In this document: in pieces, positions 35,814 through 62,507 of the stretch
How the letters are laid out: every line of letters begins with the position of its first letter
Position numbering within the stretch: the first letter of the stretch is position 1
NCBI RefSeq assembly: GCF_019649055.1
Contig: NW_026570395.1
Location: 1 to 64,000 of the forward strand
DNA from: Paramacrobiotus metropolitanus
Lineage: Eukaryota; Tardigrada; Eutardigrada; Parachela; Macrobiotidae
Reading direction: 5' to 3'
Length of the DNA stretch: 64,000 bases
Program-made: the position numbers and the translations under genes
Notes under the pieces: model-generated
Told to the model about the DNA's origin: nothing
The model's input: the letters and a program-made list of their open reading frames with translations, nothing else
The model's database searches: none

Positions 35814-37489
35814 TTAGTAAATCTCTTTTTTAAGACAGTGCTGCAAACATGCGGACCAGTTTCTCGGGAGTGCCTCCGATGCGTTATGCAGGAAAATATT
35901 GTTGACTAGAACGTTGGACGCTGTATCATCGGAAGAACGGTTGGCAAGATCTCGCACGACTAGCACGTAGGTTAGAAACACTCCCAACATCTGCAAGGCG
36001 CAATTTATGTCACCATACTACAACTGTAATTTACGCATGTGGCAGATGCGATTCCTGGGAAAAATATTTCGAAAATTGATTTCGTCAAAGAGTTCAGAAA
36101 TTCCTGCTTAAACTTACCGACAGTGCCAGATTGCGATCAATGTTAACGAACTTCCCTGCGGTAAGGACCCACGGATTCTGGCGGAAGACATGAAGTCGCG
36201 ACAGCAGCTTCATTTCGCTGCGCCAGTCGACCCCACTTTTCCCGGCTAGACTAGGGCAGTGCAAGCGTTCTTCGATGACCTCAATCAGCTTTTCAATCTA
36301 CATTATCGCGAAAGTCCGTCGTTACCAAACATAAAGCTTGGTCCAATATTTTGCCACATAAATATTTCGCTTACTTGGTAAATTTTTAAACCAATAAAAG
36401 TCGGCGTCGAATGTACGAATTTATACTTACAGCAGCGTTGTATCGTACAGCAATAAAAATTGGCACAGATACCAAAGCGGAAGCATACCACAAGATGATT
36501 ATAATGGGAAATAATGGCGCCAAGGTCGTTCCTTGATTAGTTAGCTCTTTGCTGTCAAACGACGATGAGAACGATAAAATCGTACTGAGCATGTTCAGGA
36601 AATGGAGGAAGAGAATGCTGGAAAACACTTTATCCAGAGATTTGCCGGTTCTCTGAACATGCGATATGGCCGAGTTAAACACTTGCAATGTACATTGATC
36701 CGAATGGTGTTGACATTCCTGTTTCTGACAAATCGCGTGAATTAATGTGCGGTACAATTGGGTATTCCAGGACACGACGAAACAGAAAAAGACGATGATT
36801 AGATGTTCACCCCAGACGACAACATTCTGGGTCAACAGTAAAGCGACTTCAATACCGCAAAACGATGCATTGCGAGACAGTGGCCAGTATTCTATACCGG
36901 ACATTACAGTCCATTGGGTTAAATAGGCGAATTCAATTTCGTGGATAATGAAAATAATTATTACGAATACCGTACCAAAAATCACGACTAAGCGTTCGTA
37001 ATACAGGAGTTTTCCTCGGATTCGGCCAACGACTTCGCTGCCATATAAATCGATGACAAATGATTGCATTCTTTGTTGATTATGGAATGTATTATCGAAT
37101 CGCGATCTGGATGCGTAGAAGCAAATGAGAGCCAGAAAAGAGAACACTACTTTACCAATCCACTTAAATTCGACGAAAACGAAAAAGGTAGTAATGCGGT
37201 TAAAATAGAAAAAGTGGAATACGCTACTAACTTCGCGCAACGTTGCTAGAAGAACGATGGTGATGTACAGGCATTTACTGATGAAAACTAACCATCGGAA
37301 GAACTTTGTCCAAGCTGATACGTAAGTTGGGGGCGTGGTCAGTGTGAAGAACTGCAGAATGTGCTGACTGTGCCATGGGACCTGAATTAGCACACCCTGT
37401 AGAACGACGAAGGGTTTACGGTTTAACCGATACAAAAGCAACTTGTTCTTTGTTGAATTACTTACCGAGTGCGCCAACTGTTTTAACAT
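35814..37489 (-). CDS. Gustatory-receptor-like 7TM protein, copy 1
   Basis: Three exons on the minus strand: 37489-36431, 36297-36118 and 35990-35814, all phase 0, giving 471 aa. Exon 1 carries five or six hydrophobic segments (VFISKCLYITIVLLATLRE, VVIFGTVFVIIIFIIHE, GEHLIIVFFCFVVSW, APLFPIIIILWYASALVSV). Exon 2 encodes WVLTAGKFVNIDRNLALS and exon 3 LGVFLTYVLVVRDLANR, matching the Gr family ending (TAGxFFxLDR then TYxxVLxQF) with the final QF replaced by RD. A consensus donor within exon 1 (GCGCACTCG before GTAAGT, 37,465) and an acceptor at 37,397 would remove 69 in-frame bases, so the protein may be 448 aa. It shares its upstream region with the divergent copy 2. Ligand unknown. Confidence 0.75.
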
Positions 37490-37802
37490 CTAGTGACTTT
37501 TTTACTCAGAAAGCGCGCATTTAAAAAAAATACTTTTCTACTTGTTTAGAACTGTTTGTTTGGTCCGAAGCCCGCTTTGCTTAATGTATCTCTCTATAAG
37601 CAACAATGCCATTCCATCGCGTTTTTGCAGCATCAACCTGCTGGTTTTCCCCAAGGACCATCCTACAACATTTTCGGCGCGGTATTCGATGCAGGGTTAT
37701 TGATTTGTGCAACGTTGTACAGTTCCTCACTACGAAAACGGTGCGACATTATCAACGGAAACACTTGGGCTTTTGAAATTGAAAATCCAAAGGTCATTCA
37801 CA
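37490..37802. promoter_or_regulatory. Shared divergent promoter of two Gr-like genes
   Basis: Only 313 bases separate the ATG of copy 1 (minus) from the likely ATG of copy 2 (plus), so both must be transcribed from this stretch, which also holds both 5' UTRs. CTATAAG at 37,594-37,600 is a TATA-like word in the plus direction. Coordinated expression of the pair is inferred from spacing alone. Confidence 0.5.
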
Positions 37803-39282
37803 ATGCAATTTCTTTCGTGGAATCTTCTCCAGTTCTTTATCATCCGCCGACCATCTTCTTCTCTGAGTTCACGCCAGAAACTGATGCAATGGACCGTGTT
37901 ACTTCTGAAAATAACGTACATGATTGTCGTTGGTCTGACTATCCTCCGTGAAGACACCAACAGTCTTCGGATGTATTTCATGCAAGGTCTCCATTCATCC
38001 ATATTCTTTACGGATTTTAAATGGACGGGTAAAGTTGCCTGCTCGCTGTTGACACTCATCTGTTACCATGCATCACAGAAGCAGTTTACTAGCTTATTTC
38101 TGCGTCAAGGTAAACTGGAAGTTTTCATTAGTAATATCTGTTCAGATAAAAACGCTTTCCTGAGCCGGCAAACCGCAGTCTATCGCGAACGCTTTGCCGT
38201 AATCATTGGAACGATATTGATGATTCTGATTTTCGTGACCCATGAAGCAGAGTTTGCCTATGACAACCAATGGAACATTACATACAATATGGATTACTGG
38301 CCAATCTCCGCACATTTTCCATTTTACATCGTTGAGGTTATCTTAATACTGACCCAGAATGTTGTCGTTTGGGGCGAACATCTGCTGATAGTCTTCTTCT
38401 GCTCGATCGTATTCTATCATGCGCAACTTTTTGACGTGCTAAGACATTCGATCCATCAAGAAAAGATTCCACACCGTCAAGATTTTCAAATGACCCCGGA
38501 AATCTTGGAAGGCTTTAACTCCATAATAGCACAAGTGAGGAACTCCAGTAAATCTTTGGAAAAGACGTTTTTCAAGATTCTTTTTCTCCACTTCCTCAAC
38601 ATGTTGAGTACGATTCTCTGCTTCTCATCGTCATTCGATGATAAATCCTTAACTAAAAAAGGAACAGCTTTGGCACCGCTGTTTCCCGTTATTATCATAC
38701 TATGGTACGCACTGGCGCTGGTAGCAGTTCCAATCTTCTTTTCTGTACGCTTTGCCTCTGCGGTAAGTCGTTCTGCTTAACGTAAAATGCCATCTTGTAA
38801 CATGTCGACAACGACAGAATGAGATTTTTAGATCGAAAAGCTGTTTGAAGCCATCGAACACCGTCTGCATGCCGGTGACCTTTCTGGAAAGGGGGAGGCT
38901 GAATGGCGCTGCCAGATGAAAATTCTGATGCGCATACAGGGCCTACGTCAAAACCCACTCGTTCTAACGGCCGGAAAATTCTTCAACGTTGACCGTAACC
39001 TGGCTTTATCGGTAATACAGAACTGGGCACTATACAGTTAAATTCGCAGTGCTAAAAGTATTTCGACAAACGTGATACACGTAAACATGCAATTGTTTGC
39101 AGATGCTTGGTGTATTTCTCTCTTATATACTGGTCGTGCGCGATCTGGTTAACCGAGTGCCCGAAGAGAATAACACATCCGTCATGTACAATATTTTTCA
39201 TTGCAACTCCACGCGAATGGTAGCCAGCAACTGGTCAATGTGTATTAATGCAACTGAAATATACAGTAGCACACTAGTCTGA
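37803..39282 (+). CDS. Gustatory-receptor-like 7TM protein, copy 2
   Basis: Exons 37803-38762, 38832-39011 and 39103-39282, phase 0 throughout, 439 aa. The open frame reaches back to 37,707 but only with a GTG; the first ATG (37,803, MQFLSWNLLQFF) lines up with the SWNIL start region of copy 3, so I chose it. It is clearly paralogous to copy 1 (both have LTQNVVVWGEHL, ILFLHFLNMLSTIL, WPLS/WPIS) and the exon 2 length of 180 bases is identical. The ending VLTAGKFFNVDRNLALS plus LGVFLSYILVVRDLVNR gives the Gr-family signature. The extracellular or cytoplasmic tail holds NxT/NxS sites. Likely plasma-membrane chemoreceptor; ligand unknown. Confidence 0.75.
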
Positions 39283-39886
39283 AATCGATTTTTTGGAATG
39301 AATGTTGCGGGTGTTTTCTAATTTTGCTTAGTATCATAAAATTCGTTGTCTGTACTACAGACTGTGGTTGTACAGCAATGAGACAACATATCATGCAGTT
39401 TTCAGAACAAACGCTATCTTACGTTTTTTTAGGCAAAAGACGGGTTGACACACCTGCTTTTCTGTTTAAATTGTGAACTGCCGGTATTACAGACACCGAA
39501 AACAAATGGATTTTCCTGATAGTGTTGTTAAAAAATCGATAAAATATATCGGTGCTATTTCGGTGCTATTAGAAGTAAGACTATTTCAACGGTATGGTAA
39601 TAATCTCGGAAATACGTAGTCTCTCAGTTGTCATCAGTTTTCCCAAGCAAACACTTGGGCAAACTTTCATTTTGTTCAACCTGTGTTTTCCTTACCCAGT
39701 GCTTTGGATCGTCGGCTTTTATGAGGCTCGTAGAGGCATACAAAACGATCGCCGATTAACGATTGTTTGCTCTTAAAAGTAAGGAAACGTCATTTTAAAG
39801 CCATCTATGTAGAATTAAAGATCTCTTTATCAAAGCCGACGAATAACTGTTTTTAACGTTTGTTTGTGCTTCATCTCAGAGAAGCA
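39283..39886. other. Intergenic, no gene seen
   Basis: This separates Gr-like copies 2 and 3. It is AT-rich; the 60-aa open frame here has no supporting features. Confidence 0.6.
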
Positions 39887-41347
39887 ATGTTTAATTTCGA
39901 AGAAACTAAAATGCTAAACGATGATTCGCATCAGCTCTTAAGCTGGAACATTCTGCGAAAATTGCTTCCAACAGCGTATGTATCCAACGAAATTCCAGGC
40001 ACTGGGTGCAAACTTTTCTTTAAAAAATGTTGGCATTATTTTCTCCAGTTTTGGAAAGTAATATACATCATCTGCCTTACTGTGGCGGTTATAAGGGAAC
40101 CCTTCAACTCTATCCGCTACTACATTATAACGAACGACAGATTAACGATTCGCATGTTCCTGTCTGATTTTAAATGGACCGGCAAAATCAGCTTATGTGG
40201 CGCGACGGTAGTTTATTACTATGTGACCATCAAGAAGATGAACGGGTTAAACCAGATGTACCATAATATCGCGAGACTTCAAGGGGAAGTACTTGGCGAA
40301 AAGACCGTATTGGAAATACATCGAAAGGTCACGCGTTTGGATCGCGTTTTTGTCATACTCGGAGCCATTCTGTTCCTGTTAATATTTGCAACACACGAAG
40401 CCGAGTACGCGTATCTGTACCCGAAGATCCTGACGGAAGGCCGGGATTACTGGCCGTCAACCCACAACGAACCGTTTCTCCCGTTAGAAGTGTACTACGT
40501 ACTGGGACCCGGTGGGGCAGTCTTTTTGGAACAACTGATCATTACACTGTTCTCCACGCTCTTATATTTCGGTATACTGTCGCTGAATGCTTTTCACCAT
40601 TTTGTGGAGAACAGCAAACCGTCTCCTCACACCACGCAACATCTGTGGAAAGTCATTGCACAGAGTCGTTTGATCTTCCAGTCCATCGAGGCGTGTTTCA
40701 GTAAGATCCTGTTTCTGCATTTTGTCAACATGGCCATGACCATCTTGTCCTTTACACCGGCCTTCGACGGGGTGTCGCCGGGAGATCCGGGATTGAAGCG
40801 TCCCTGGGCGCCGCTCTTCCCGCTGATTGTAATCACGTGGTATGGAGCGATATTGATCGCCCTGCCGGTGGAACTCTCCACACAGTGTTCACAATCGGTA
40901 TGACGGTTTTCGATGTAATTAAGTTGATGATGAAGTTCAAGTTCGTTATGGCTGTTTCTCGTCTGCAGATGAGTAAACTCATGGAAGCGATGCACGAGAG
41001 TGTCTGTTCGGTCAACAGTGGTGTTGATAAATGGGCGACATTTGGGAATGAGCTGAAACTGCTGCTGACGATCAATTTCACCCGGCAAACCTCTCCCGCC
41101 ATCACCGTTGCCGGATTCTGTGTCGTCGATCGCACCTTTGCAATTTCGGTATGAATAATCATTAATATTGTTGTCGATTAATTTCGATTACTCATTTTTC
41201 CACAACAGGCTTTTAGTGCATACGGCTTTTTTTTTGCAGCTCTTCGGCTTGTTCCTTACCTACGTCTTCGTCGTGCGCGAGATCATTAATCGCACTGGAG
41301 AAGACCTGTGCGAAGGTCTCCGGCGCTGCAATGGAACAGTGTATTAA
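39887..41347 (+). CDS. Gustatory-receptor-like 7TM protein, copy 3
   Basis: Exons 39887-40897, 40969-41148 and 41240-41347, phase 0, 432 aa. The open frame extends upstream to 39,860 only with TTG, so the first ATG (MFNFEETKML) is used. The membrane segments include VIYIICLTVAVIRE, VFVILGAILFLLIFATHEAE and APLFPLIVITWYGAILIAL; exon 2 ends ITVAGFCVVDRTFAIS and exon 3 starts LFGLFLTYVFVVREIINR, the Gr-like ending. The short tail stops with NGTVY. FKWTG in the first third and THEAE after the third segment are shared with copies 2 and 4. Forms a tandem pair with copy 4, to which it is closer than to copies 1 and 2. Confidence 0.75.
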
Positions 41348-41978
41348 TATATATCTACAATATCCACGAATGCTTTTTCATAATTTACATATTCCATAAC
41401 ACAACTTTAGCATGCTTTTTCTTAATTTACAATAATTATTCCATAAGTGACTCATACCGCTTGATATGAGGCGCCGCAAAAGGACCGATTTGCTGCCAAC
41501 TAGCTGGAAACTTTGTATTAACAACGTTTGCACTTTAGCTCCCTAAAAAGCTTGTTTTCGGTAGAAAATGGCTTTATGCGAAGCCCTGATAATACGTAAT
41601 TACGATATGCACCGTGAACACATGCTATAACTATGCTCCCTCATTATTTTGAGCAGTTATTTGGCGTTACCAGAGGAGAGGACTGGGATTCTCCTCAGTG
41701 TAAATATGAACATACGTCAGCAATTGTGATGCATGTTGGTATGACGGTGATCAGCAAATTTGTATGCTGATGTTCCTGTTGAGTATTACAGTCAGTCAGA
41801 ACATAAATTTTGAAAATATGATTGTGTTCATAATAACAAAGTGCACCATATTTCTGCTACGCCTTTTACGTTGTATTAGTGGTAGGTTTTAGCTGCCAGG
41901 TATTAAGTGGCGGTCCACGATGGCTACGCCGCTACCCACCATCTGAATCATCTAGATGTGCTTTTAAGCTTCAGGATA
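41348..41978. other. Intergenic, no gene seen
   Basis: This lies between Gr-like copies 3 and 4. From about 41,910 to 41,978 the frame of copy 4 is open and still resembles the N-terminus of copy 3 (LDVLLSFRIMQNLLPVRYV) but without an ATG; see copy 4. Confidence 0.5.
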
Positions 41979-43511
41979 ATGCAAAACCTACTTCCGGTAC
42001 GCTATGTCGGAAAAGCCATGCACAACTCTGGGACTGAGACCGTACTAAGACGAATTTCTCACTGCGTTCTTCAGTTCTTAAAGGCAGTGTATCTCATATG
42101 CTGCATCCTAGCCGTTATCCGGGAACTAGGCAGCAGTATTTGTTTCAACGTTTTCGATAGCGATCGCATAACCATGCGGATGTTCCTATCGAATTTTAAA
42201 TGGACAGGGAAAATCCTTTTTTCTGGCTTGACAGTTGTTTATTACTACTGTAATAGCACAAAAATACAGGAGCTCAAACAGATGTGCGGAGCCGTCGAAA
42301 AACTACACAGAGAACTCTTCGGCAAAAGTGTTATGCCGCAACTGACTCGCAAAGTCAAGCGTTTAGACCGTATCTTTACCATCGTTGGAGCGATCTTATT
42401 TATTCTAGTTTTTGTAACTCACGAGGCAGAATATGCGTATTCGTATCCAAACGTAATGACGGACGGCAGAGATTTCTGGCCTGCACAACAGAACGAACCC
42501 TTTCTTCCTTTAGAACTCTACTATGTTCTTGGGCCGGGAAGCGTCGTCTGGATGGAGCAATTGATTATCACAGTTTTCTTAACGATAGTGTATTCTGGTA
42601 TACTCGCGTTGAATAATTTCACACGGTTTGTTGTAAGCCAGCCGTCAACGGAAACGGTACAACATTTCTGGAAAATCATCCTACATGGTCGATTGATCTT
42701 TCATTCTATTGAGTCATGTTTTAGCAAGATTCTCTTGCTGCATTTTGTCAACATGGTCATGACGATTCTGGCGTTTATACCGACATTCGACGGTGTATCG
42801 CCCGATGTCCCCAAATTAAAGCGTCCTTTGGCGCCGCTGTTTCCCCTGATTATCATCGCATGGTATGGTTTGTTAATCGCCCTACCGGTAAAACTGTCAG
42901 CACAGTGCTCGGTTTCGGTATGAAAGTTGAGTATACTGTAATTTCAACTGATGATCTGAGTAACAGCCTTTGTTATTTGCAGATATATAATCTTTTGGAT
43001 GCAATGCACGATATCGTCTGTGGAACCAATGGAAACGTAGCGACAAATCTTGTACCCGAGAAGTCGGAAAGGGATCTAAACTGTTGAATGCCATCAGCTT
43101 TGAACGACAAAAATGCCATGCGATAACCATAGCCGGCTTGTGTCCGCTTGACCACACGTCTGCCATTTCGGTAAACAGATATGATGAGGCACTGCGGTCA
43201 CCGTAAAATTGTTCTGCTAACTGTATTTGCAGCTCTTTGGCCTGTTTATGACCTATGTATTCGTCGTCCGTGAAGTAACCGACGGGAAAAGCGGCGATGT
43301 GGGCGACTTGCGACGTTGTAGCGTAACACCAGGTTTCACTGCTTTGAGACGGATCGGATTTGACAAAATTTACTGTAGAATAATGACAATTATTCCAGTT
43401 AAAAAGAAAATAATTTACTGTTGGACACACGTTGACCACATCAAGTGTCGAACTTATTATTGTTTCTTCATCAAAAATTTCACAGAAGCTTCGGAAACAA
43501 TCACATGTTAA
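41979..43511 (+). pseudogene. Gustatory-receptor-like copy 4, probably broken
   Basis: Exon 1 (to 42,917) is intact and closely parallels copy 3 (RLDRIFTIVGAILFILVFVTHEAE, YYVLGPGSVVWMEQLIITV). Exon 2, bounded by TTATTTGCAG at 42,982 and a GTAAAC donor at 43,171, is 188 bases instead of the constant 180: it starts in frame as IYNLLDAMHDIVCGTNG, runs into a TGA at 43,085, and the family ending HAITIAGLCPLDHTSAIS is found in another frame. Exon 3 from 43,233 (LFGLFMTYVFVVREVTDG) lacks the stop of copy 3 and runs on to 43,511. The conserved N-terminal region also lies upstream of the first ATG. Together this suggests a recent pseudogene; a base-calling error in exon 2 alone could account for the frameshift. 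Confidence 0.65.
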
Positions 43512-44728
43512 GCATAAATCGAAAGAGGCGGCCTGATTACAGTGTCGAATTATCGTCAACAGGAAACCGTTTTACCGCGTTTATCAAGAAATTTTGTGGC
43601 TATGCAGTTTGTCATGTACGTATTACAAACAGTTCCCCTTGTAAGTATCGTCCTCTGTGGCGAAAGCTTGTATAAGCGCACCAATGCCTTATTTTTTGTG
43701 CAATCCGAATGTTGCGTTTAGGTAAAAAAATACTGAATATGCAAGTGTAGTAATAAGGTTGCTAGACTATGAACGAGATCAACCGACTTGGAAGAATGTT
43801 AAGGTGTTGTAAAGCATATTCATGTCGTTAGCAAAGTACATACGTATATCAACATGACAACATCTATGTCTATGTACTGTACTACTGAATATGCAAGTGT
43901 AGTAATAAGGTTGCTAGACTATGAACGAGATCAACCGACTTGGAAGAATGTTAAGGTGTTGTAAAGCATATTCATGTCGTTAGCAAAGTACATACGTATA
44001 TCAACATCTATGTCTATGTACTGTACTTCCGATGCACTTCATCTGCGACCGGTTTGGATTTTTTAACACCTAATTTCCACTGTGGTATAACGGCATCATA
44101 GTTTAAACTAAGCGAGACACGGTAAAATACAGTAGTTTAGCTACGGTTGCACATTCCGATCTCGAGGATATTTTCGCAGTATTTAACGCCTGGATGGATC
44201 AGATTTCATTCGTTTGGTACGGCGTTTCATTTTAATCCGTTAACTGCAGTGAAGTAATTGAAACGAAAAATCCACAACTGGTTATCCAAACCGTTCAATT
44301 TATTTAGTTCATCTTTTTTTCCGTCTAAAGAAATTATGCTTTGAAATCCCAGGAAATAAATCAGCAGATATGGTGTATTATACGGATAGGTTTATCTGCA
44401 GTATGTTGATTATGTTCGAGGTACCAGCGTGGTGATGATCTGTTATACAATTTTCCGGTATTGTCGACACTACCGTATAAGCCATACACAGACGACGTCG
44501 TTTAAACGATCATCTCGCGCTGGGTCAGCACTGTACACCAAACAACAGCAGCGTGACCATTTGACTGCCGAGTTGAATGTCTGGATTACACGGCACATAA
44601 CGCTTTAATCCTCCGCACCGTGCACAAATCCCCAGACAATCGATTTCTATACAATCCGCCGTTCCAACAAGAAATCTTCAGCAAGAAAAAAATGCTTGTC
44701 ATCCAGCCAAAAAATCCACCGAAAACAG
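43512..44728. other. Intergenic with a 152-bp tandem duplication
   Basis: No gene is supported here. The main feature is the duplication at 43,731-44,026, described separately. Confidence 0.6.
43731..44026. repeat. 152-bp direct tandem duplication
   Basis: Copy one is 43,731-43,882 and copy two 43,883-44,026. Both begin TACTGAATATGCAAGTGTAG and end CTATGTACTGTAC. They are identical except for an 8-base deletion in copy two (ATGACAAC missing after ATATCAAC), so the event is recent. Confidence 0.95.
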
Positions 44729-44735: not shown

Positions 44736-44822
44736 CCACCCTTAAGAAAACAGCCCAGATCGTGTCGCGTACGGACTACTAGAAAACTATTCGATATTCT
44801 TCTGTATCGAACCGCGGTCAGA

Positions 44823-45302
44823 ATGCGTCTCTTCCTCGCTGTTTTCTGCCTGACTATCAGCGCTGTTCTGGCCCAACACGACACCGGTCACGGCGCGCCG
44901 GCCCCCGCCCACGGCGCCACCACCAAGCCGTCCGCCCGCGGCGGCACTACCGCCAAGAAGGGCGCAGCCAGCGCTGGCGGCCATGATGCCCACGCCGCAC
45001 CCGCTTCCGGCCACGGAGCGGCCGCCGACACCCATGGAACCGATTCGCATTCCAGCTCCAGCCACGCTGCTGATTCGCATTCGTCCAGCGCCGGTCACGG
45101 AGCCGATTCCCATGGAGCTGACGCCCATGGATCAGCCAGCAGTAAAGACTCGCATGCTCCGGCTTCTAGCGGTCACGGGACACCCGCGGCTTCAGGAGGT
45201 CACGGAGCGCCGGCGGCCTCTGGAGGACACGGAGCCTCATCGGCGGCAACAGCGCGCCGAGGAGCCGCAGCGGCTAAACCGACGCCGGCGGCTCATCATT
45301 AA
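44823..45302 (+). CDS. Secreted His/Gly/Ala/Ser-rich disordered protein
   Basis: Intronless, 159 aa. A clear signal peptide (MRLFLAVFCLTISAVLA, cleavage before QHD) is followed by a low-complexity mature chain of Gly, Ala, Ser, His, Thr and Pro with irregular repeats (GHGAPAASG-like units near residues 119-140 and DSH-containing units near 70-110). About one residue in eight is histidine, often as GHG or DSH. No cysteine and no recognisable domain in the mature part. The TATA box upstream and an AATAAA at 45,450 make a compact transcription unit, and its GC-rich codons differ from the AT-rich flanks. Metal binding or a role in an extracellular coat is possible from composition only; I do not recognise the family. 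Confidence 0.8.
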   Translation: MRLFLAVFCLTISAVLAQHDTGHGAPAPAHGATTKPSARGGTTAKKGAASAGGHDAHAAPASGHGAAADTHGTDSHSSSSHAADSHSSSAGHGADSHGADAHGSASSKDSHAPASSGHGTPAASGGHGAPAASGGHGASSAATARRGAAAAKPTPAAHH

Positions 45303-50226: not shown

Positions 50227-51753
50227 ATGTCCGACCAGGGGAAGCTGACCGGCAAACTGGCCGTGGCCCTCTTCGCTTCCACCTTCGGCACCTGGTTCCC
50301 GCACGGCCTTAGCGTCTCCGCCCTCAACGGGCCCCAGAACATCGTCCTCAACTGGATCCGCTCCGTCAAGTGCGTCCGCTGGGGCGGCCAGTTCGCCGGC
50401 AATTACACCAACAACACCGACCTCCACGATCCCAACCACTACTTGTGGTGCCGGACCATCCCTCAAGCCGAGGAAAAATCCCTGAAGCAGAACTACGAAC
50501 TGTACACCCTGTGGGCGCTGTGCTCGTCCATGCTGTGTGTCGGCGCCCTGATCGGCACCCTCCTAACCAACCTCTTCATCCACGGACTGGGCATCAAAAA
50601 GTCACTGATGCTGGGCGCCGTCATTCTCCTGGCCGGGTGTGTCCTGTGTTCCTTCGGCCCGACCGCTGGTTCATGGGAGCTGTTTCTATTGGGACGGATC
50701 GTCATCGGACTGGGCACGGGCCTGGTTACCGTGGTCACGCCTATCTACACCTCGGAGATCACCCCTGCGAAATTGCGCGGTGCCGCCGGGACCCTGCCGC
50801 CGGTGATGTACGTCCTGGGCCTGATCGTCACCACCGCCATCGGGTTCCCGTACGTCCTGGGTCACGAGACAGGGTGGCCGTATTTGGTCAGCGCCGTCAT
50901 CATCCCGGTGGTGATCGCCTGCGCCATCCTCCCGTTCTGCCCAGAGAGTCCGCGGTACCTTTATATCGAGAAGAGCCGGGAGGCCGACGCCCAGATGGCG
51001 CTTATGTGGTTTCGCGGTGCCGGTTCGGTCAAGGACGAGCTGGAGGAGATGCACACCGAGGCCGAGCACCTCAAGGGCACCCGCAACGTCACTCTCCTGG
51101 GGCTGTTCGTCGACCCCTTCCTCCGCAAGATCTGCTGGCTGGTGGCCGTGCCCATGCTGGCCCATCAGTTCTGCGGGTTCTACTGCGTGACCTTCTACTC
51201 TACCTCCATCTTCGACGATGTCGGGTTGAAGCAGATGGACGCCGTGTACGCCACCATGGGCGTCTGGGTGGTGTACCTCATCGCGCTGCTGACCTCCATG
51301 GCGTTGGTGGACCGCCTGGGCCGCCGCACCCTCCTCCTCATCAGCCACCTGGGGATGATCGTGGCGCTGGTGCTGTTCGTGGTGTTCGCCGTGACCCGCG
51401 AGCAGGGCGTGGAGTGGACCAAGTACGGGAGTGCCGCCTGTATGCCGCTCTTCATCGCCTCCTTCGCTACCGGGTCGGCGTCGGTGCCATGGATCCTCCC
51501 GGGAGAACTGTTCCCCCAGGAAGCACATAATTCATCGGCTAGCCTGGTGGCCGCAGTGTCCTGGGCGGGAGCCATTCTGACGACGCTGTTGTTCCCGCTG
51601 ATTGTGGTGGTGGCTAAGCATTATACGTTCCTCATCTTTGCCGGGTTGGTGGCGCTGGCGACGGTGCATATTGTGATTAAGCTGCCGGAAACTAAAGGAA
51701 AAACTATTGAGGAGATTCAAGCTTTATTGCGCAGTGAACGGCAGACGCGATAA
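50227..51753 (+). CDS. SLC2/GLUT-family hexose transporter, intronless
   Basis: 508 aa, one exon, ATG at 50,227. Major facilitator superfamily sugar porter of the plasma membrane, 12 membrane segments. Landmarks in order: N-glycosylation sites in the first outer loop (NYTNNT, about residue 59), GRIVIGLGTG followed by YTSEITPAKLRGA, PESPRYLY after segment 6, FYSTSIF in segment 7, DRLGRR between segments 8 and 9, PWILPGELFPQ in segment 10 and PETKGKT at the end. The usual segment-7 QQLSG sugar-contact motif reads HQFCG, so the first Gln and the Ser are changed and specificity may differ from mammalian glucose carriers. Lack of introns and high GC set it apart from its intron-rich neighbours and suggest retroposition, though no poly(A) tract is visible. 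The TIR element ends 210 bases upstream. Confidence 0.93.
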   Translation: MSDQGKLTGKLAVALFASTFGTWFPHGLSVSALNGPQNIVLNWIRSVKCVRWGGQFAGNYTNNTDLHDPNHYLWCRTIPQAEEKSLKQNYELYTLWALCSSMLCVGALIGTLLTNLFIHGLGIKKSLMLGAVILLAGCVLCSFGPTAGSWELFLLGRIVIGLGTGLVTVVTPIYTSEITPAKLRGAAGTLPPVMYVLGLIVTTAIGFPYVLGHETGWPYLVSAVIIPVVIACAILPFCPESPRYLYIEKSREADAQMALMWFRGAGSVKDELEEMHTEAEHLKGTRNVTLLGLFVDPFLRKICWLVAVPMLAHQFCGFYCVTFYSTSIFDDVGLKQMDAVYATMGVWVVYLIALLTSMALVDRLGRRTLLLISHLGMIVALVLFVVFAVTREQGVEWTKYGSAACMPLFIASFATGSASVPWILPGELFPQEAHNSSASLVAAVSWAGAILTTLLFPLIVVVAKHYTFLIFAGLVALATVHIVIKLPETKGKTIEEIQALLRSERQTR

Positions 51754-52344: not shown

Positions 52345-55300
52345 ATGGCCTCGATCACTTGGTTATGCGTGATTACGGTGTTGCTCTTAAGCGTCTTAGG
52401 TAAAACGGCTACGGGAGTTATGAATGTTGAAGAATTGTCATAGAACGGGTTTAAAAATGTAAATTAAGGTACAGATATACTGTACGTGTTCACAATAAAC
52501 AGGTAGTTTCGGGGCGTCCCAACATCTGCGCACCATCAATGTGGACGGTGCGTATGGAAAATGGAATGCATCGAGTATTCCCTACTGCATCGACGCCGAT
52601 TACTGTACGTCAATTTCTCAGTTTTTCGCGTGCAGTATAATAACGCAGTATACATACATAATCACACCCATAAGTGCTGCAATAATTTTCTTTTTACAGT
52701 ATCTAATCAGGAAAGTAACTTTCGATTTGTATAAGCACAGTAGTGCTAAGTACGAGTACTCTGTACATGGTTTTAGCGTATAAGTGGATGTTTTTGTAAT
52801 AATATTTGTAATAATATTATGTAATTTGTAATAATATTAATTTTGTAATAATATTATGTAACCATTTTGATAATGGTTTCCTCTTATACAGCCCCGACAG
52901 AAAGGTCAACAATTCAGCAGGCCATCCAGATCATGATGGATGCACTGTCCGGTAAACTGATATTTACTCCCGTGGACTGCACGGATAGCCGTTACAAGAT
53001 ACGCTTTACGGCGCTGACCGGAGGACCGTAAGCCATTATTCGAATCCGTTCGTAGGCCGACCACTCGTTTACTGTACGGTTGACTGTACGTCCGTACTGA
53101 ATCCTACAGTAGTAAAAAGGATCGGTTCGCGAACGGATTCGATGTATCTGTAAGAGTATACTAGGGTAGTACATGTTATGCAAGACAAGCCTCCGTTTCT
53201 GCTAGGGTAGAATTTATTCTAGCTTGCTCAAAGTAAGGTCTGAAATTCAAACACTTTTGAGCCGTTTTTGCAATGAGATGAAATACAATGAGATTTAAAA
53301 CTAACCAAATTATTTTACAAAAACCCCTGAAAATCTTTAATCGTTTAGGAGTTGAAGTGATTAACAATTTCTCGTCCTTTTTTATCGTTTTGTCAGCTGC
53401 CTTTCGTCAAAACTTCGTTAAATCCTGTGATACCGTAGTATAAAACTGGCTTGTTAAGAGTTTAAAATAATACTTAAAATAACCAGGTTTTAAATTAATC
53501 AGCTATTTCAAACACGCAGAAAGCCTATTTCGTTATGGAATTGATACGACGTTGTAGCTTGAAATTTTGAAAATATACCGTAAATAATTTCACCCTACTG
53601 CAGCTTAAAGCGAAGCCAACTGACCACAGTGGAAGTCGGCTTTACTGTTGGGCAACCATACTAATGATACATTTACTTAGAGTTCGAAACCCATCCTAAG
53701 ATTTTGTGCCATTCCACAGAGGCAGCGCCAACCGCATCTCCTCGTCCAGTGATCCTGGTGTTAATTCAGCCCAGCAGAGGGCGTCCCAGACCGAGCAAGT
53801 GGTGGCCATTGCCCGTGACAGTCTGGGCTGCTCCACCGATGTGCACTGTGCCCTCAAGTTCATCGCCATCTGTCTGGGCAAACGGGAGGAACAGCTGCGC
53901 AAGGATCGCGACCAGTATATTACCGTCACGCTCAGCAACGCCGTTACACCGGTACGCCAGTCATCATTAGCTTAATAAAACTGCACCGGGTTTTTACCAA
54001 ATTAAGAAGCACGTTTCCTACCTAGTCGTCCCGTGCATCGGCACTGCGCATCTAATTAAGGGGATAAGATGAAATCGGGTTGGGAATTTCGTGGAAATAT
54101 AGTGTTTGAATATAGTAACTGACAGCTTGATGGGTTCGCAGAGTCAGTTCACTACTTACCTGGACACCCAGGCGTATATTGGCCGATTCGGCTACGACTA
54201 CTGCAGCATAACGGTAAGTTTATATAACCGTTACTAATGGAGAACGTTGTGTAGTGTCGTTTCTAGTTACAGTTCCCGCGGATGAATTACCGTAAACTAG
54301 AATAATATTAACAAGTCTAAGAAGCTGTCTACCATTGTATGGTGTTCTCTGGATGACAGCATAACCAGCCGACCGATTACGCCAAACCCGGCACGGTGGT
54401 CTTCACCGTCCCTGCGGGCAAGCCAAACAGTCCGGGCTGTATCCCCAAACTCAGCAATATCAGCAACACCGACTGCCAGCTCATCAGTTTGTTGTACGGG
54501 CTCGACGCGACTTTATGCAAGCCGTGTAAGTTATGCGTGATGCATCGATCTAACTGCGGAAAATAATTCCTAACCACAATAATCAGTTAGCATAACCACG
54601 ACCTATAATAACCTTTGCTGCAGTAAACTGCGCCGCACAATCCTGCGTGACGACCACCACGACCACGACGACAACCACGCCCACCACACCGACGACCACC
54701 ACTGCCTTGACAACCACCGGGGCATCCACCGACAGCACAACGTCCACAACACCAACAACACCAACGACAACACCAACGACCGGCACGACAACGGCTATGA
54801 CCTGTCCAACGGCGGCGACGGTTCCAACAAGTATGGGAACATTTATTTTTCTATGGATATAAAATTATTAATGAAATAATTTATAAAAAAAATCACAAGC
54901 CTGCGGTGCAAAAGAATTCTTTGACTTGCAATGTAATTTTGCCATAAACGTCGTTATCTTGTTATTCCTCCTTCAGCAACCCCGCCCCCGACATGTTCCG
55001 TTGACTTCTGCGCCACACCCACTCCGACCATCGACGAGGCGAGCATTCTCTGGAACGACAAGTATTACATGTTTTCCGGTACATGATCGAGACTTTCCCG
55101 ATCCGCTAAATTTGCCGTAAAACAGTTCCGTTCAAATTGCAGGTGACTGCGCCGTACAGATCGACGATCATAACAAAATCATCGGCACGTCGGTGCCGGT
55201 CAGCTATGTCCTGCCCGGAGTCTCCGGTCCCGTGAGATCCATCTGGACGGACCTAAAATATAAGATCACGCGTGTCGTCACCGACGTACGTGCTTAAAAA

Positions 55301-56745
55301 GAAATAAAAGTAATTTGCTTAAAATACAACGTCAGCTTCCGTCGAAGAAAACTCCCGTTCTGGTGGTTATCTACGGTTATACCAATGCGGCTTGGCGAAC
55401 ATATTCTGTTGCGATGAATACAACTGCATAATTATTTTTTGGGAATATCCTTGATTCCCGTCTTTCCTTTGCAGACAACACAGTACAACTGTTATGCCGC
55501 CGGGTGTTTTCCCGTATCGCCGATGGTAGACGATATCCGACCCCGCTGGGAGTTCATTCGCACCGATTCCGGCGGACTTATGGCGACAACCAGCCCGTAC
55601 ACAACGTACTCCTACGACGGTATGCGGTGCACGCGCACAACCGCGTATCACGCCAATTCACTTGACACATCTAACCAACATCTATAACCTTTTGCAGCGG
55701 ATGTTCTGGCCTATGCAGCGGATGATGACTCGGGCAATCTGGTCGGGATCGGGAATTTGTGTATACTTACCGATCCTAACTGCAAAATCACGCAGGGATG
55801 GAATGCCGTGTACATGGTCAGTTCAAAGTGCTTATTAAGATAAAAAGCGACAAACAACAGCAAAAATAGTCGATTCCTTTGCACGGAATTTTTCTTATTT
55901 CGGCCATTCGTTAAATCATTGCCTTCTCCTTCGAAAAATTTTATAAATGGGCTCTCCTTAGCTTTGTGCTAGATGACAGTTAACTGGGTTCCCAGGTTAA
56001 CTTATGTTAAACCTTTTAACTTTGTCAATTTACTAGATGAGAGCCAGATGTGTAACCGCGTTATTGTATAAGGAAGTAACGGAGCCCATTTATAGGTTTT
56101 TTCGAAGTACGCTTAATTTACATTTATGAACCGGTCCATAAACCGGTTTTGGAATTTCCTAACAAAACACAGCTTTTAGAAATGACCAGTTTAGACCTTA
56201 GACTTTGCTCATAAGTTTGTAAGTGTACTGTGTACGGAGTACTGTAAGCTTTAAACTAAATTACCCGTACACTGATTTTTTTTAAAAATAAAATGATTGA
56301 CAGAAATTTAAACTAAAATTTAAATTCCAATGACCGGTTTACAAAGACGTGCATTTAAAGTTACTGAAATACGAAGAACGTAGCGACAGTTTTTTTTTGC
56401 CCCGCGGCCGGCGTACGACTTTGTAGCCCACCAGATGGTTAACTCTTCCGCAGTACAAAAGCACCATATTAATTAGCCACAACATCACACTCCCGCCGGG
56501 CACAAAGCAGGATTTTTCAGCTCGGCTGTTTTCAGTCCCTGTTGTTTGCTGGATGATGCACGGTAACGTAAAGTATGTATGATTAGGTGAAAGGCACCGC
56601 TGGGATAAACTATGTCAACGTTATCGGCACCGGCGACGACGGCAACCAGTACCTTAACACCATGTTCTGGGTTGCCACCGACTACTTTGCCTATTTATCG
56701 AATGGTGATCTGCTCTCCAAAGCCCTCCAGTGCCCCAGCCCGTAA
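52345..56745 (+). CDS. Secreted pseudo-astacin with Thr-rich linker and hemopexin-like tail, gene A
   Basis: Exons: 52345-52399, 52503-52604, 52892-53027, 53720-53951, 54142-54213, 54360-54525, 54624-54830, 54977-55078, 55143-55285, 55475-55619, 55698-55816, 56587-56745; 1,638 nt, 545 aa, all junctions in phase. Signal peptide MASITWLCVITVLLLSVLG, then at once an astacin-like domain (YGKWNASSIPYCIDADYS, STIQQAIQ, LRKDRDQYITV, FGYDYCSITHN, LSNISNTDCQLISLLYG). Where active astacins have HExxHxxGxxHExxRxDRD this reads KFxxIxxGxxEExxRxDRD, so the three zinc ligands and the catalytic Glu are gone and the Met-turn Met is Thr. Exon 7 is a mucin-like run of Thr/Pro. Exons 8-12 hold IDEASILWNDKYYMFSG and VPVSYVLPGV, like a hemopexin blade, and a Cys-containing tail. 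Likely an extracellular binding or structural protein. Confidence 0.8.
52794..52860. repeat. AT-rich 13-bp tandem repeat in intron 2 of gene A
   Basis: Four imperfect copies of TTGTAATAATATT lie between exons 2 and 3. Confidence 0.8.
53041..53141. repeat. Small inverted-repeat element in intron 3 of gene A
   Basis: CGAATCCGTTCG at 53,041 pairs perfectly with CGAACGGATTCG ending at 53,141; with mismatches the arms reach about 22 bases (inner CCGA/TCGG). The whole is about 100 bases and absent from the same intron of gene B. Confidence 0.65.
55929..56107. repeat. MITE-like inverted repeat in intron 11 of gene A
   Basis: The left arm (55,929-55,960: CTTCGAAAAATTTTATAAAT then GGGCTCTCCTTA) matches the reverse complement of the right arm (56,077-56,107: CGGAGCCCATTTATAGG, then TTTTTTCGAAG). 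The interior also has a near-perfect palindrome around GTTAACTGGGTTCCCAGG. It sits in the unusually long 770-bp intron. Confidence 0.7.
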
Positions 56746-58672: not shown

Positions 58673-61600
58673 ATGACACTGACCCCATCGGTATGCATGG
58701 GAATAGTGCTTATTCTACAGGGTGCCACAGGTAACAGAGACAGAGTAATATAATTGCTATTAGAACAGAGTAATATAATTATTAACAGAGGTAACAATTA
58801 TTATTATTTATTATTCGAGCCTTATTGAGTCTAGGTTTTTGGCAGTCGGTAATGATTGTTGAACTGTACTTTTTTAAAATGTATGGCACTTCACGCAAAC
58901 AGGCAGTTTTGGCGCATCCCAGCATCTGCGCACCACCAACGTGGATGGGGCATATGGAAAATGGAATGCATCGAGTATACCCTTCTGCATTGATTTGGAT
59001 TACTGTACGTTGATTGAAGTGTACTGTACAATATATACCGACACACCAGTTCACCATTGCATACCTACACTTAGTCTTCAGAGTATACAAGTATAGATAG
59101 TTGTAATTTGTTAATGTAACCTATTTTTCAGTTAATACGTTCAGTTGCAGTAGTCCTCTTGATATCTTAAACAACGTTTTATCATATTGCACTGTGTGAA
59201 AATGTATCACGTGCCCATTGTAGGCGAAGACAGATCAGAGAGAACTTCATCTTGTAAAAATCGAATTTTAACTTTATATATTTATTGTTTTTAATTTAAA
59301 ATTGAAATTTATGGTGTTCTATGTAGCCGCGACAGAAAAGTCAACAATTCAGCAAGCTATCCAGATCATGACGGATGCCCTGTCCAATAAGATGGTATTC
59401 ACTCCTGTGGACTGCACGGATAGTCGCTATAAGATCCGCTTTACGGCGCTGACCGGCGGACCGTAAGTCAAATAAATATATTCGGATAAATTATAGCTAG
59501 AATATTGACTTTTTTAGCGACAGCACTTATATTTAAGACTAGACAGTCGCGCGCTTCAACATCCAGCATTTCGTACTCACGTGGCGCAGTACACTGCCCG
59601 ACAAAAGTAAAATATCCGGCTGTCGTACAGCGTACTGCGCCGCGCCACAAGCGTACCGAATGCTGGAAATTTAGTATGCAGCGTGCATTTTCTTACCGTC
59701 CTCATCAATAGAGGCAGCGCCAACCGCACCTCCTCATCCAGTGATCCCGGGGTCAATCGGGCGCTCCAGACCACCCAGACCGAGCAGATGATAGCCATCG
59801 CCCGTGACAGTCTGAGCTGCTCCACCGATGTCCACTGCGTCCTCAAGTTCATCGCCATCAGTCTTGGCAAACGGGAGGAACAACTGCGCAAGGATCGCGA
59901 CCTGTATATTACCCTGAACCTCAGCAACGCTGTTACTCCGGTACGCTTCTACCTTAGGTTATAAGGTTATACAAGCTGCGCTCTGCTGATAGATTGTTCA
60001 ATTCGCAGAGCCTCTTTACCGTTTACACGGACTCGCAGGCGTACTGGGGCCGGTTCGGCTACGACTACTGCAGCATAACGGTAATGTACTGCTGATAATT
60101 ACTGGTATTGATAAGTCTCCAGATTAATGTCGTCGCCGTGGTTATTGGACCGCTGAATGAACCCCTGGAAATGTTAATATACATATTATGAGATTGAATC
60201 AGCTTATAGTTGTACGGTGTTTCGCTTGTTGACTGCAGCATAACCAACCAACGGATTACGCCAAACCCGGCACGGTGGTCTTCACCGTCCCTGCGGGCAG
60301 GCCTAACAGTCCGGGCTGTATACCGAAACTCAACAACATCAGCAACACCGACTGCCAGCTCATCAGCATGTTTTACGGTCTCAACCCGGGTTTATGCCTG
60401 CCGTGTACGTTACTGGCCATGGTGGATACTATTCTCATCCTGATACACTTCTACTGATCGAAATGAATGATTGATGAATACAATGAATGATGATTGATGA
60501 ATACACGAAAACAATTTTCCTGTACTGCAGTGAACTGTGCCGCCCAATCGTGCGTGACCACTACGACCGCAACGACGACAACCACACCCCTAACGACCAC
60601 ACCGACAACTACAACTGCCTCGACAACCACCGGGACGTCCACTGACACCACAACGTTAACGACAATCTCGACAACGACGGCGTTGACGACGACACCGACG
60701 ACCGACACAATCACGGCTGTGACGTGTCCAACGGCGGCGACAGCTCCAACGAGTAGGGGAATTTTATTTTTACTATACAGTTACACAGAACAGCCAAACT
60801 GAAAATTAATTATCGCAAAGGGCTACACTGCACAGTTTTACAGCCGCAGTCAGGATTTTCCGTAAATAATAATAATTTTGACATTAGCTCATTGGCCCTA
60901 AATACCAAAAAACCGATGTCATAGAAAGTAAATTTTTAATAAATTTTCGTATTGCATGTTTCAGCAACCGTGCCCCCGACATGTTCCGTTAACTTTTGCG
61001 CCACGCCCACTCCGACCATCGACGAGGCGAGCATTTTGTGGAACGACAAGTATTACATGTTTTCTGGTAAAAAAATTTATCTTCTACAGCATTCGCCAAA
61101 TAAAAAGCTTTCCCTTGTCTCTGTTACAGGTGACTGCGCCGTACAGATCGACATCACCAACAAGATCATTGGCCCATCGGTGCCTGTCAGCTATGTTCTG
61201 CCGGGGGTCACCGGTCCTGTGCGCTCCATCTGGACGGACCAAAAGTATCAGATCACGCGTGTCCGCACCGATGTATGTTGTATTAGGAAGTAATTTGCAG
61301 ATCGTATGACATTTGCCGATAGTGGTACTTTAAGATAAACCGCCGCTCCGGCAGCCTACGGTGATACGTATTCCAGTTACCGTGATAGGGACTACTACGT
61401 TGATAGTTACCTGGTACTATGGTGGTGCTTCTGCGTGGCGATCGTTGTTGTATATTTCGATGGAAATGCTGGAATCGCTTTGCAGACAGCACAGTACAAC
61501 TGCTGGGCATCCGGCTGCTTTCCCGTGTCGCCGATGGTGGACGATACACGCATCCGATGGGAGTTTATTCGCACCGATTACACCGGCGCTATTTCCACGG

Positions 61601-62507
61601 TCCGCCCGTACACCACGTACTCGTTCGATGGTATTAACTGGAGCACTTCTTTGACCGCCTAATACGAATATAATAAAATTATCTGTGACCTTTTGCAGCG
61701 GATATTTCGGCTTATGAACCGGATGATGGGGGCTTTCTGGTATCGACGTCATCATTGTGTGTCATTACCAATAACTGCAAGATCACACAGGGATGGAATG
61801 CCGCTTACATGGTCAGTTAAAACTGCAGACTTTGGTATCTTTCCCATGAGAAACACTTTCGCTGTGTAATTCCTACCCTTTTCATAAAAAAATTCACCTG
61901 TAGTATCAGCACCGGGTCTAGCTCCATTTGTTTAAGGATAATAGCTGACGGAAGTTATACGGACATTATACGGTACATTCCAGTCTTAGTTTTGACATTT
62001 TTCTACTGTACGATTAAATAGTGTATTCGGAATGAACTTCTTTAACAGATACAATATCATTTTATCTTAGCCGATGCAGAAAATAATTTTATTTTTACGT
62101 GTGAACCAACGCGGAAAAATTTTGTGGCGTGTTTTATTATTCGAAGTCGAGTAGCAAAAGCTTTCTGCAGAAGGTGCAATGTAGTGGGAAAAACAACGAA
62201 GTTTAAAGGGGATTGGCAATAACGGAGCTAAAAATAATCGCTGTCTACCTTTTGTCGGGTACGGAAATTACATATGTACAAAATAGCTGTGTTACTCTCA
62301 ACGCCTCGATTGTTCATCCTCGACGATATAATATCATGTGTTCAACAGGTAAAAGGCGCCGGCAGTATGAACTATGTCAACGTAATCGGCATCGGTGACG
62401 ACGGCAACCAGTACATCGAATCCCTGTTCTGGGCTGACACCGATGTCTACGTTTTCTTGACAAATGGGGATCTGCTGTCCAAATCCCTCCAGTGTCCAAG
62501 CCCGTAA
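58673..62507 (+). CDS. Secreted pseudo-astacin with Thr-rich linker and hemopexin-like tail, gene B
   Basis: Exons: 58673-58730, 58903-59004, 59327-59462, 59712-59940, 60009-60080, 60239-60404, 60531-60752, 60965-61066, 61130-61272, 61486-61630, 61699-61811, 62349-62507; 1,647 nt, 548 aa. Structure matches gene A exon for exon; only exons 1, 4, 7 and 11 differ in length. Signal peptide MTLTPSVCMGIVLILQGA. The pseudo-active site reads KFIAISLGKREEQLRKDRD, with the same zinc-ligand and Glu losses as gene A, so inactivation predates the duplication. The Thr-rich linker is five residues longer than in gene A. The C-terminal region keeps IDEASILWNDKYYMFSG, SIWTD and a Cys in CPSP at the end. AATAAA at 62,665 is a candidate poly(A) signal. 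Hemopexin assignment is moderate; the astacin fold is well supported. Confidence 0.8.
59563..59666. repeat. Small inverted-repeat element in intron 3 of gene B
   Basis: Left arm CCAGCATTTCGTACTCACGT (then GGCGCAGTAC) from 59,563 is the imperfect complement of the right arm 59,631-59,666 (CGTACTGCGCCGCGCCACAA then GCGTACCGAATGCTGG). No matching sequence is seen in intron 3 of gene A. Confidence 0.65.

Follow-up and report, generated by a model that had tools for sequence, protein, structure and literature searches.

An astacin-like gene with a replaced catalytic site, and its relatives, in the tardigrade Paramacrobiotus metropolitanus

Pseudoproteases are known among the ADAMs, the carboxypeptidases and other families. 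Here we describe gene A, which encodes an astacin-like protein with every catalytic residue replaced, in a stretch of 64,000 nucleotides from the tardigrade Paramacrobiotus metropolitanus (NCBI RefSeq assembly GCF_019649055.1, contig NW_026570395.1, positions 1 to 64,000 of the forward strand; hereafter the window). Our favoured reading, held with moderate confidence, is that gene A encodes a secreted astacin (M12A) pseudoprotease whose former catalytic cleft has been reused for binding, with a stalk and tail that hold the protein extracellularly.

The closest described proteins are the active astacins (PF01400, MEROPS M12A), such as crayfish astacin (1ast), 3lqb and the meprins. The dead family to which gene A belongs shares with them the extent of the domain, the W..IPY.ID start, the helix glycine, Glu103, RxDRD and the YDY.SI motif, and part of the active and dead rows in our alignment share a candidate intron after the helix in the same place and phase. 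In contrast to the active enzymes, gene A has the histidine ligands, catalytic glutamate, Met-turn methionine and tyrosine ligand all replaced, the dead clade carries new basic residues at the site, and the intron donor of the gene A subclade lies two bases later, in phase 0. The Drosophila S-LAPs are an expanded leucyl aminopeptidase family that reportedly supplies major sperm proteins, and some of its members are inactive; like the dead astacins they are a lineage expansion of a metallopeptidase family, but their fold is unrelated (M17). The hemopexin domains of matrix metalloproteases (collagenase-3, 1pex) and the plant hemopexin-fold lectins align with a tail repeat of the gene A family, although the tails of gene A and its neighbour gene B miss the Pfam Hemopexin model and are partnered with a dead astacin rather than with an active matrix metalloprotease domain.

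In the review PMC11266112, pseudo-metallopeptidases are an accepted kind of protein, and the pseudoprotease ADAMs (ADAM2, 11, 22 and 23; M12B) are described as metzincins without zinc ligands, some of which function in complex assembly. These ADAMs resemble the dead astacins as metzincin relatives minus their zinc ligands but belong to a different family, M12B, and according to the same review they typically keep the Met-turn, whereas the Met-turn methionine is lost in the dead astacins. Astacin itself is mentioned once in that review, in a list of metzincins. PMC9145152 reports that tardigrade NAS-type zinc metalloproteases are strongly induced after ultraviolet C exposure. The excerpts of PMC12167791 contain nothing on dead astacins, and the "inactive homologs" that appear beside "astacin" in excerpts of PMC4826915 are S1 peptidases. 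Among the matches listed, no description of a dead-astacin family was found in the open-access literature, which omits most subscription journals.

The astacin domain of gene A and its twin

Searched against the Pfam Astacin profile (PF01400; cut-off 22.5 bits), the domain of gene A scored 44.1 bits (E=2.5e-11) and covered profile positions 1-186 of 189, so the astacin homology proposed in the initial annotation of this DNA extends nearly from end to end. The closest solved structures by sequence are zebrafish 3lqb (8.1e-7), high choriolytic enzyme (2e-4) and meprin alpha. When a profile of the dead family (28 rows, exon pieces anchored to gene A) was compared with one of active enzymes encoded at 20 loci in this genome, the profile-profile match was 98.3% with E=1.9e-14 over 117 columns.

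Aligned with the signature HExxHxxGxxHE, the site of gene A reads K-F-I-E in place of H-E-H-H, which bears out the claim of the initial annotation that every catalytic residue is lost. That annotation had also listed motifs that are kept, and these are indeed present: the helix glycine (Gly151), the glutamate after the third-histidine place (Glu155), and RKDRD (in both A and B), which corresponds to the RxDRD of astacin proteases, while the W..IPY.ID start and the YDY.SI motif are common to gene A and active astacins. The losses go further than had been noticed. The Met-turn reads SITHN in A and B versus S[IV]MHY in active enzymes, with the methionine of gene A replaced by Thr199 and the fifth zinc ligand, a tyrosine, by Asn201; the twin gene and the large genome family described below are likewise new. 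HExxH is absent from all six frames across the spans of genes A and B, so no alternative frame there restores the motif, a possibility that the initial annotation had considered for exon 4. The domain is predicted to be unable to bind zinc in the manner of astacins or to cut peptides.

The models of both genes were built from splice signals and homology. Every intron of gene A has GT-AG ends, and its 1638-nt frame is open as far as the stop. The segment in which the altered site was originally noticed (53720-53951) is exactly exon 4. The N-terminus of gene A is hydrophobic, as judged by eye, in agreement with the secreted product that had been suggested. The features, all on the + strand, are as follows (aa, amino acids).

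52345..56745, +: gene A, 12 exons, 545 aa, with leader, short pro-region, dead astacin domain, Thr-rich stalk and hemopexin-like tail (GT-AG exons, single open frame; Pfam Astacin)
52345..52399, +: exon 1, initiator Met and signal-peptide-like hydrophobic leader (sequence reading by eye, no predictor)
52503..52604, +: exon 2, pro-region followed by the beginning of the astacin domain, W..IPYCID (gene model)
52892..53027, +: exon 3, N-terminal part of the astacin domain (gene model)
53720..53951, +: exon 4, former active-site helix, KFIAICLGKREEQLRKDRDQY in frame (gene model, alignment)
53856..53858, +: Lys144, replaces the first zinc His (alignment)
53859..53861, +: Phe145, replaces the catalytic Glu (alignment)
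53868..53870, +: Ile148, replaces the second zinc His (alignment)
53886..53888, +: Glu154, replaces the third zinc His (alignment)
54142..54213, +: exon 5, beginning of the former Met-turn, with Thr199 in place of Met (gene model, alignment)
54360..54525, +: exon 6, remainder of the Met-turn, in which His is followed by Asn201 where active enzymes have the zinc-binding Tyr, and last part of the astacin domain (gene model, alignment)
54624..54830, +: exon 7, Thr-rich stalk (composition)
54977..55078, +: exon 8, end of the stalk and first hemopexin-like repeat (gene model, profile comparison)
55143..55285, +: exon 9, first hemopexin-like repeat, continued (gene model, profile comparison)
55475..56745, +: exons 10-12 (55475-55619, 55698-55816, 56587-56745), remaining tail (gene model; no domain assigned)
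58673..62507, +: gene B, a 12-exon tandem paralogue coding for 548 aa, with K, F, I and E at the dead site as in gene A (gene model; Pfam Astacin E=3.7e-9)

Gene B repeats the architecture of gene A and matches Pfam Astacin with 37.0 bits. Between the two genes the rates of nonsynonymous (dN) and synonymous (dS) substitution were 0.089 and 0.465 in the astacin part (dN/dS 0.19) and 0.159 and 0.530 in the tail (dN/dS 0.30), with an overall dN/dS of 0.26. Searches with the domain and tail of gene A matched exon 4 plus tail seven times along this contig, between 53.7 and 97 kb. This seven-gene array opens with A and B, its other five members lie outside the window, and the site is dead in all seven. 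Four of six exon-4 pairs, those with unsaturated dS, had dN/dS values of 0.07 to 0.24; of the remaining two pairs, one gave no dS estimate and the other a dS of 1.44. Judged by these ratios, gene A is maintained intact by selection, and pseudogene status is countered by the intact exons together with the low dN/dS.

Dead relatives across the genome

Searches of the genome (169,799,020 bases in 533 contigs) with four family members as queries yielded 109 aligned astacin-like rows, of which 59 are dead, 47 have the full H-E-H-H and three (L095, L096 and L016) have an incomplete site and were scored as neither. Because loci were partly picked by matching dead queries, the dead counts do not reflect a genome proportion. 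A scan of the genome with the Astacin model gave at least 164 matches among 150 scored of 445 candidates. Fifty loci fetched among the matches listed comprised 44 with the full motif, four dead and two incomplete; the motif was complete in 40/40 control loci from that list, and ten further matches included four with the full motif (L069, L093, L094, L098), four dead (L085, L086, L092, L097) and two incomplete (L095, L096). When dead exon frames of relatives were scanned singly against Pfam Astacin, four of six passed (L076, L088, L074, L019) and two fell below the cut-off, L068 with no Astacin match and L005:4330-4629 with 15.7 bits.

The four catalytic columns were masked before tree building because circularity was to be avoided, and four rows with fewer than 38 filled columns (L083, L091, L095, L096) are on no tree. 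The FastTree phylogeny (105 rows) groups 51 dead rows and the incomplete L016 in a clade of 52 that includes no active row, with a support of 0.94; six dead rows fall outside it. In the IQ-TREE result (104 rows, L016 excluded), 48 dead rows by themselves make up one side of a split with a Shimodaira-Hasegawa-like approximate likelihood ratio test (SH-aLRT) value of 95, and nine dead rows lie outside it; the alignment had 61 columns, which the program warned is few for so many rows. The dead or active label changes four times on this tree, versus a mean of 34.5 when shuffled. The two methods disagree on the placement of L015_1176, L071 and L088. The best reading of these trees, which is not a proof, is that catalysis was lost mainly once, with a few separate losses in addition. 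Gene A is one of about fifty related dead genes in this genome. The initial annotation had called its product an unusual pseudoprotease; the pseudoprotease assignment stands, but "unusual" was too modest a term for a member of so large a family.

Several dead rows show partial losses: L088 keeps the glutamate and the second histidine, L012, L076 and L077 keep the second histidine, L072, L074 and L086 keep the third, and L097 lacks the third only. A candidate donor after the active-site helix, at offset 43 and in phase 1, was found by pattern matching in 19/47 active and 18/59 dead rows. By the same kind of match, 13 dead rows including gene A have a donor solely at offset 45, in phase 0; this count also lists row W_9611 (gene B), whose model donor is in phase 0, and four dead rows could not be located. 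The shared intron place and phase fit descent from an ordinary multi-exon astacin, not from a retrocopy.

A dead exon at C87:282258-282428, a copy outside the aligned rows, and another at C87:407946-408116 lie on opposite strands of the contig and are 100% identical over all 57 residues, which suggests either a recent duplication or an assembly artefact.

The former active site, the tail and their possible use

Conservation was assessed in 53 dead-clade rows, which remain when the six that FastTree placed outside its clade are taken from the 59 dead rows; L083 and L091, which are on no tree, are included. The first-histidine place is basic in 48 of them (Lys in 30, Arg in 18). The second position after the helix glycine, beside the third-histidine place, is Arg in 45/53 dead-clade rows versus 0/47 active rows, which mostly have Phe or Tyr; the Fisher test for this difference (p=1.8e-20) assumes independent rows and is overstated, as the rows are related. 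Position -11 is Arg in 36/53 dead-clade rows and Gly in 44/47 active rows, and the third-histidine place is Asn in 32/53. Among older features, Glu103 is retained in 52 and the second Arg of RxDRD in all 53. A histidine at +5 occurs in 35/53 dead-clade and 21/47 active rows; A and B have Gln there. In the former Met-turn, Met has become Thr in 27/29 rows and Tyr has become Asn in 21/29, while the histidine is kept in 20/29 and a new Cys is present in 24 of the 27 rows with a letter at that position. The two rows with Gln for Met, and a Val in place of the histidine, seem to reflect intron sequence read through at exon ends. Such a new conserved pattern is not expected from decay, and we therefore prefer reuse of the site to a relic.

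Five dead rows have Gly or Ala at the first-histidine place, and in four of them (L079, L081, L084 and L090; the exception is L099) the residue that follows, at the old catalytic glutamate place, is Arg or Lys. A shift of the basic residue by one position may have taken place in these four.

Under the favoured reading of a binding pseudoprotease, loss of the zinc ligands, the catalytic glutamate and the Met-turn methionine would leave no astacin-type catalysis, and the old cleft, with a conserved basic residue at the first-histidine place and a new arginine beside the third, would offer a surface to which an anionic or peptide ligand could bind. The stalk, rich in Thr and probably O-glycosylated, would display the domain and the hemopexin-like tail would anchor it, so that together they might hold it in the extracellular matrix, cuticle, eggshell or secretions. 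It is from the predicted absence of catalysis combined with a cleft apparently rebuilt with positive charge that we infer a binding protein. A bolder version, which we put forward only tentatively and consider doubtful, is that a tardigrade astacin lineage lost catalysis mainly once, turned the zinc site into a cationic pocket that is conserved (Lys or Arg for the first histidine, Arg both beside the third and ahead of the helix) and diversified into about fifty secreted proteins that bind an anionic ligand, some with stalks and hemopexin-like tails. If this were true, the family would be a lectin-like repertoire built on a dead protease, for example for sulfated glycans or microbial surfaces. 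With about fifty dead genes beside many active ones, and relatives that keep one histidine or the glutamate, the dismantling and reuse of an enzyme site could be followed. A further implication is that the name "zinc metalloproteinase nas" in lists of tardigrade expression need not denote an enzyme.

Several observations weigh against a reused binding cleft held in place by a hemopexin-like tail. Genes A and B carry Glu, not the commoner Asn, at the third-histidine place, and the places of the catalytic glutamate and second histidine vary freely (entropy 3.18 and 2.77 bits), unlike those of a wholly conserved pocket. The basic first position may in part be mutational drift retained by descent, because His to Arg is a single transition, and agreement among dead-clade rows is not independent because the rows are related. 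The cleft-facing orientation of the new residues is deduced from the alignment. Finally, Pfam Hemopexin (PF00045) was not matched by A or B at E up to 1, and when nine family tails, L076 not among them, were combined into a profile, a PDB search to E=10 returned no hemopexin.

The Thr-rich stalk recognised in the initial annotation is plain (75 aa, 60% Thr and Ser), but the hemopexin-like tail that it proposed is the weakest point of the architecture: it is supported by profile comparison and by the relative L076 and fails in the Pfam Hemopexin search and in the PDB search without L076. In the comparison with hhalign, the nine-tail profile matched hemopexin repeats of six loci in the same genome with E=4.1e-5 (69.9%) and a score of 30.6, whereas the best of 40 column shuffles reached 16.3 and the comparison with active astacins scored 9.3; the repeat set represents six of nine fetched loci, as L103, L108 and L109 were removed by a length and motif filter. 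L076 (contig C3) has a dead astacin exon and, about 1.2 kb further on, a Pfam Hemopexin match (E=2.5e-7), and this frame matches the profile of the A and B tails with E=4.3e-5 within a small set of fetched loci. A ten-tail profile that includes L076 retrieved the MMP-13 hemopexin domain 1pex from the PDB (E=1.4e-4), followed by other hemopexin folds. With fair confidence the first tail repeat is hemopexin-like, and it is the only part of the tail recognised; a complete hemopexin propeller is unproven.

The tails of A and B have no Pfam match, so hemopexin by Pfam alone fails for them, and the 216-aa tail alone had no convincing match in the PDB. A match to a CV39L lectin (E=0.013) rests on a short repeated piece and was taken as chance, as were matches to bromodomains and a xylanase (E of 0.2 and above).

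Other explanations were weighed against the favoured binding pseudoprotease. We consider it unlikely that the dead domains act as decoys that bind inhibitors, pro-peptides or substrates of active astacins and thereby tune their activity: many active astacins are present in the same genome (44 of the 50 fetched among the matches listed) and the dead clade retains Glu103 and the RxDRD stretch, but the changes at the site are themselves conserved, and retention of the substrate-side residues would be expected of a faithful decoy. A similarly low probability attaches to a structural protein, in which the domain would be abundant bulk material of cuticle, eggshell, or seminal or salivary secretion, much as the S-LAPs reportedly make up major proteins of Drosophila sperm. 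The tandem expansions, the leader, the Thr-rich stalk and the new cysteine in the former Met-turn would suit such a role, but bulk material needs no specific conserved basic pattern at the old site. Decaying relics, either pseudogenes or genes under relaxed constraint, are very improbable, since the loss of all catalytic residues is set against twelve intact exons in each of A and B, low dN/dS and a deep clade of dead rows only. The chance that another metal is held by other residues with some activity kept is close to nil, as the +5 and Met-turn histidines that might serve are opposed by Gln at +5 in A and B and by a basic first-histidine residue that would repel a cation, and the +5 histidine is not new because it is common in active enzymes too.

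Other features of the window

The first 28 kb of the contig are occupied by a satellite array (window positions 1-27957) of 86.6 copies of a 324-bp unit with an 89% match. Four long hydrophobic frames of 338-367 aa follow at 36386-37489 (-), 37704-38780 (+), 39857-40903 (+) and 41907-42923 (+). They look alike by eye and resemble multi-pass receptors, and none scored above a Pfam cut-off; they are possibly an unrecognised chemoreceptor-like family. Directly upstream of the 12-exon genes, at 50227-51750, lies an intronless gene for a 508-aa sugar transporter (Pfam Sugar_tr, E=6.7e-93), which is perhaps a retrocopy. A frame at 44736-45302 is very rich in His, Gly, Ala and Ser and has no Pfam match; upstream of it is a pair of 140-bp direct repeats (43716-44007).
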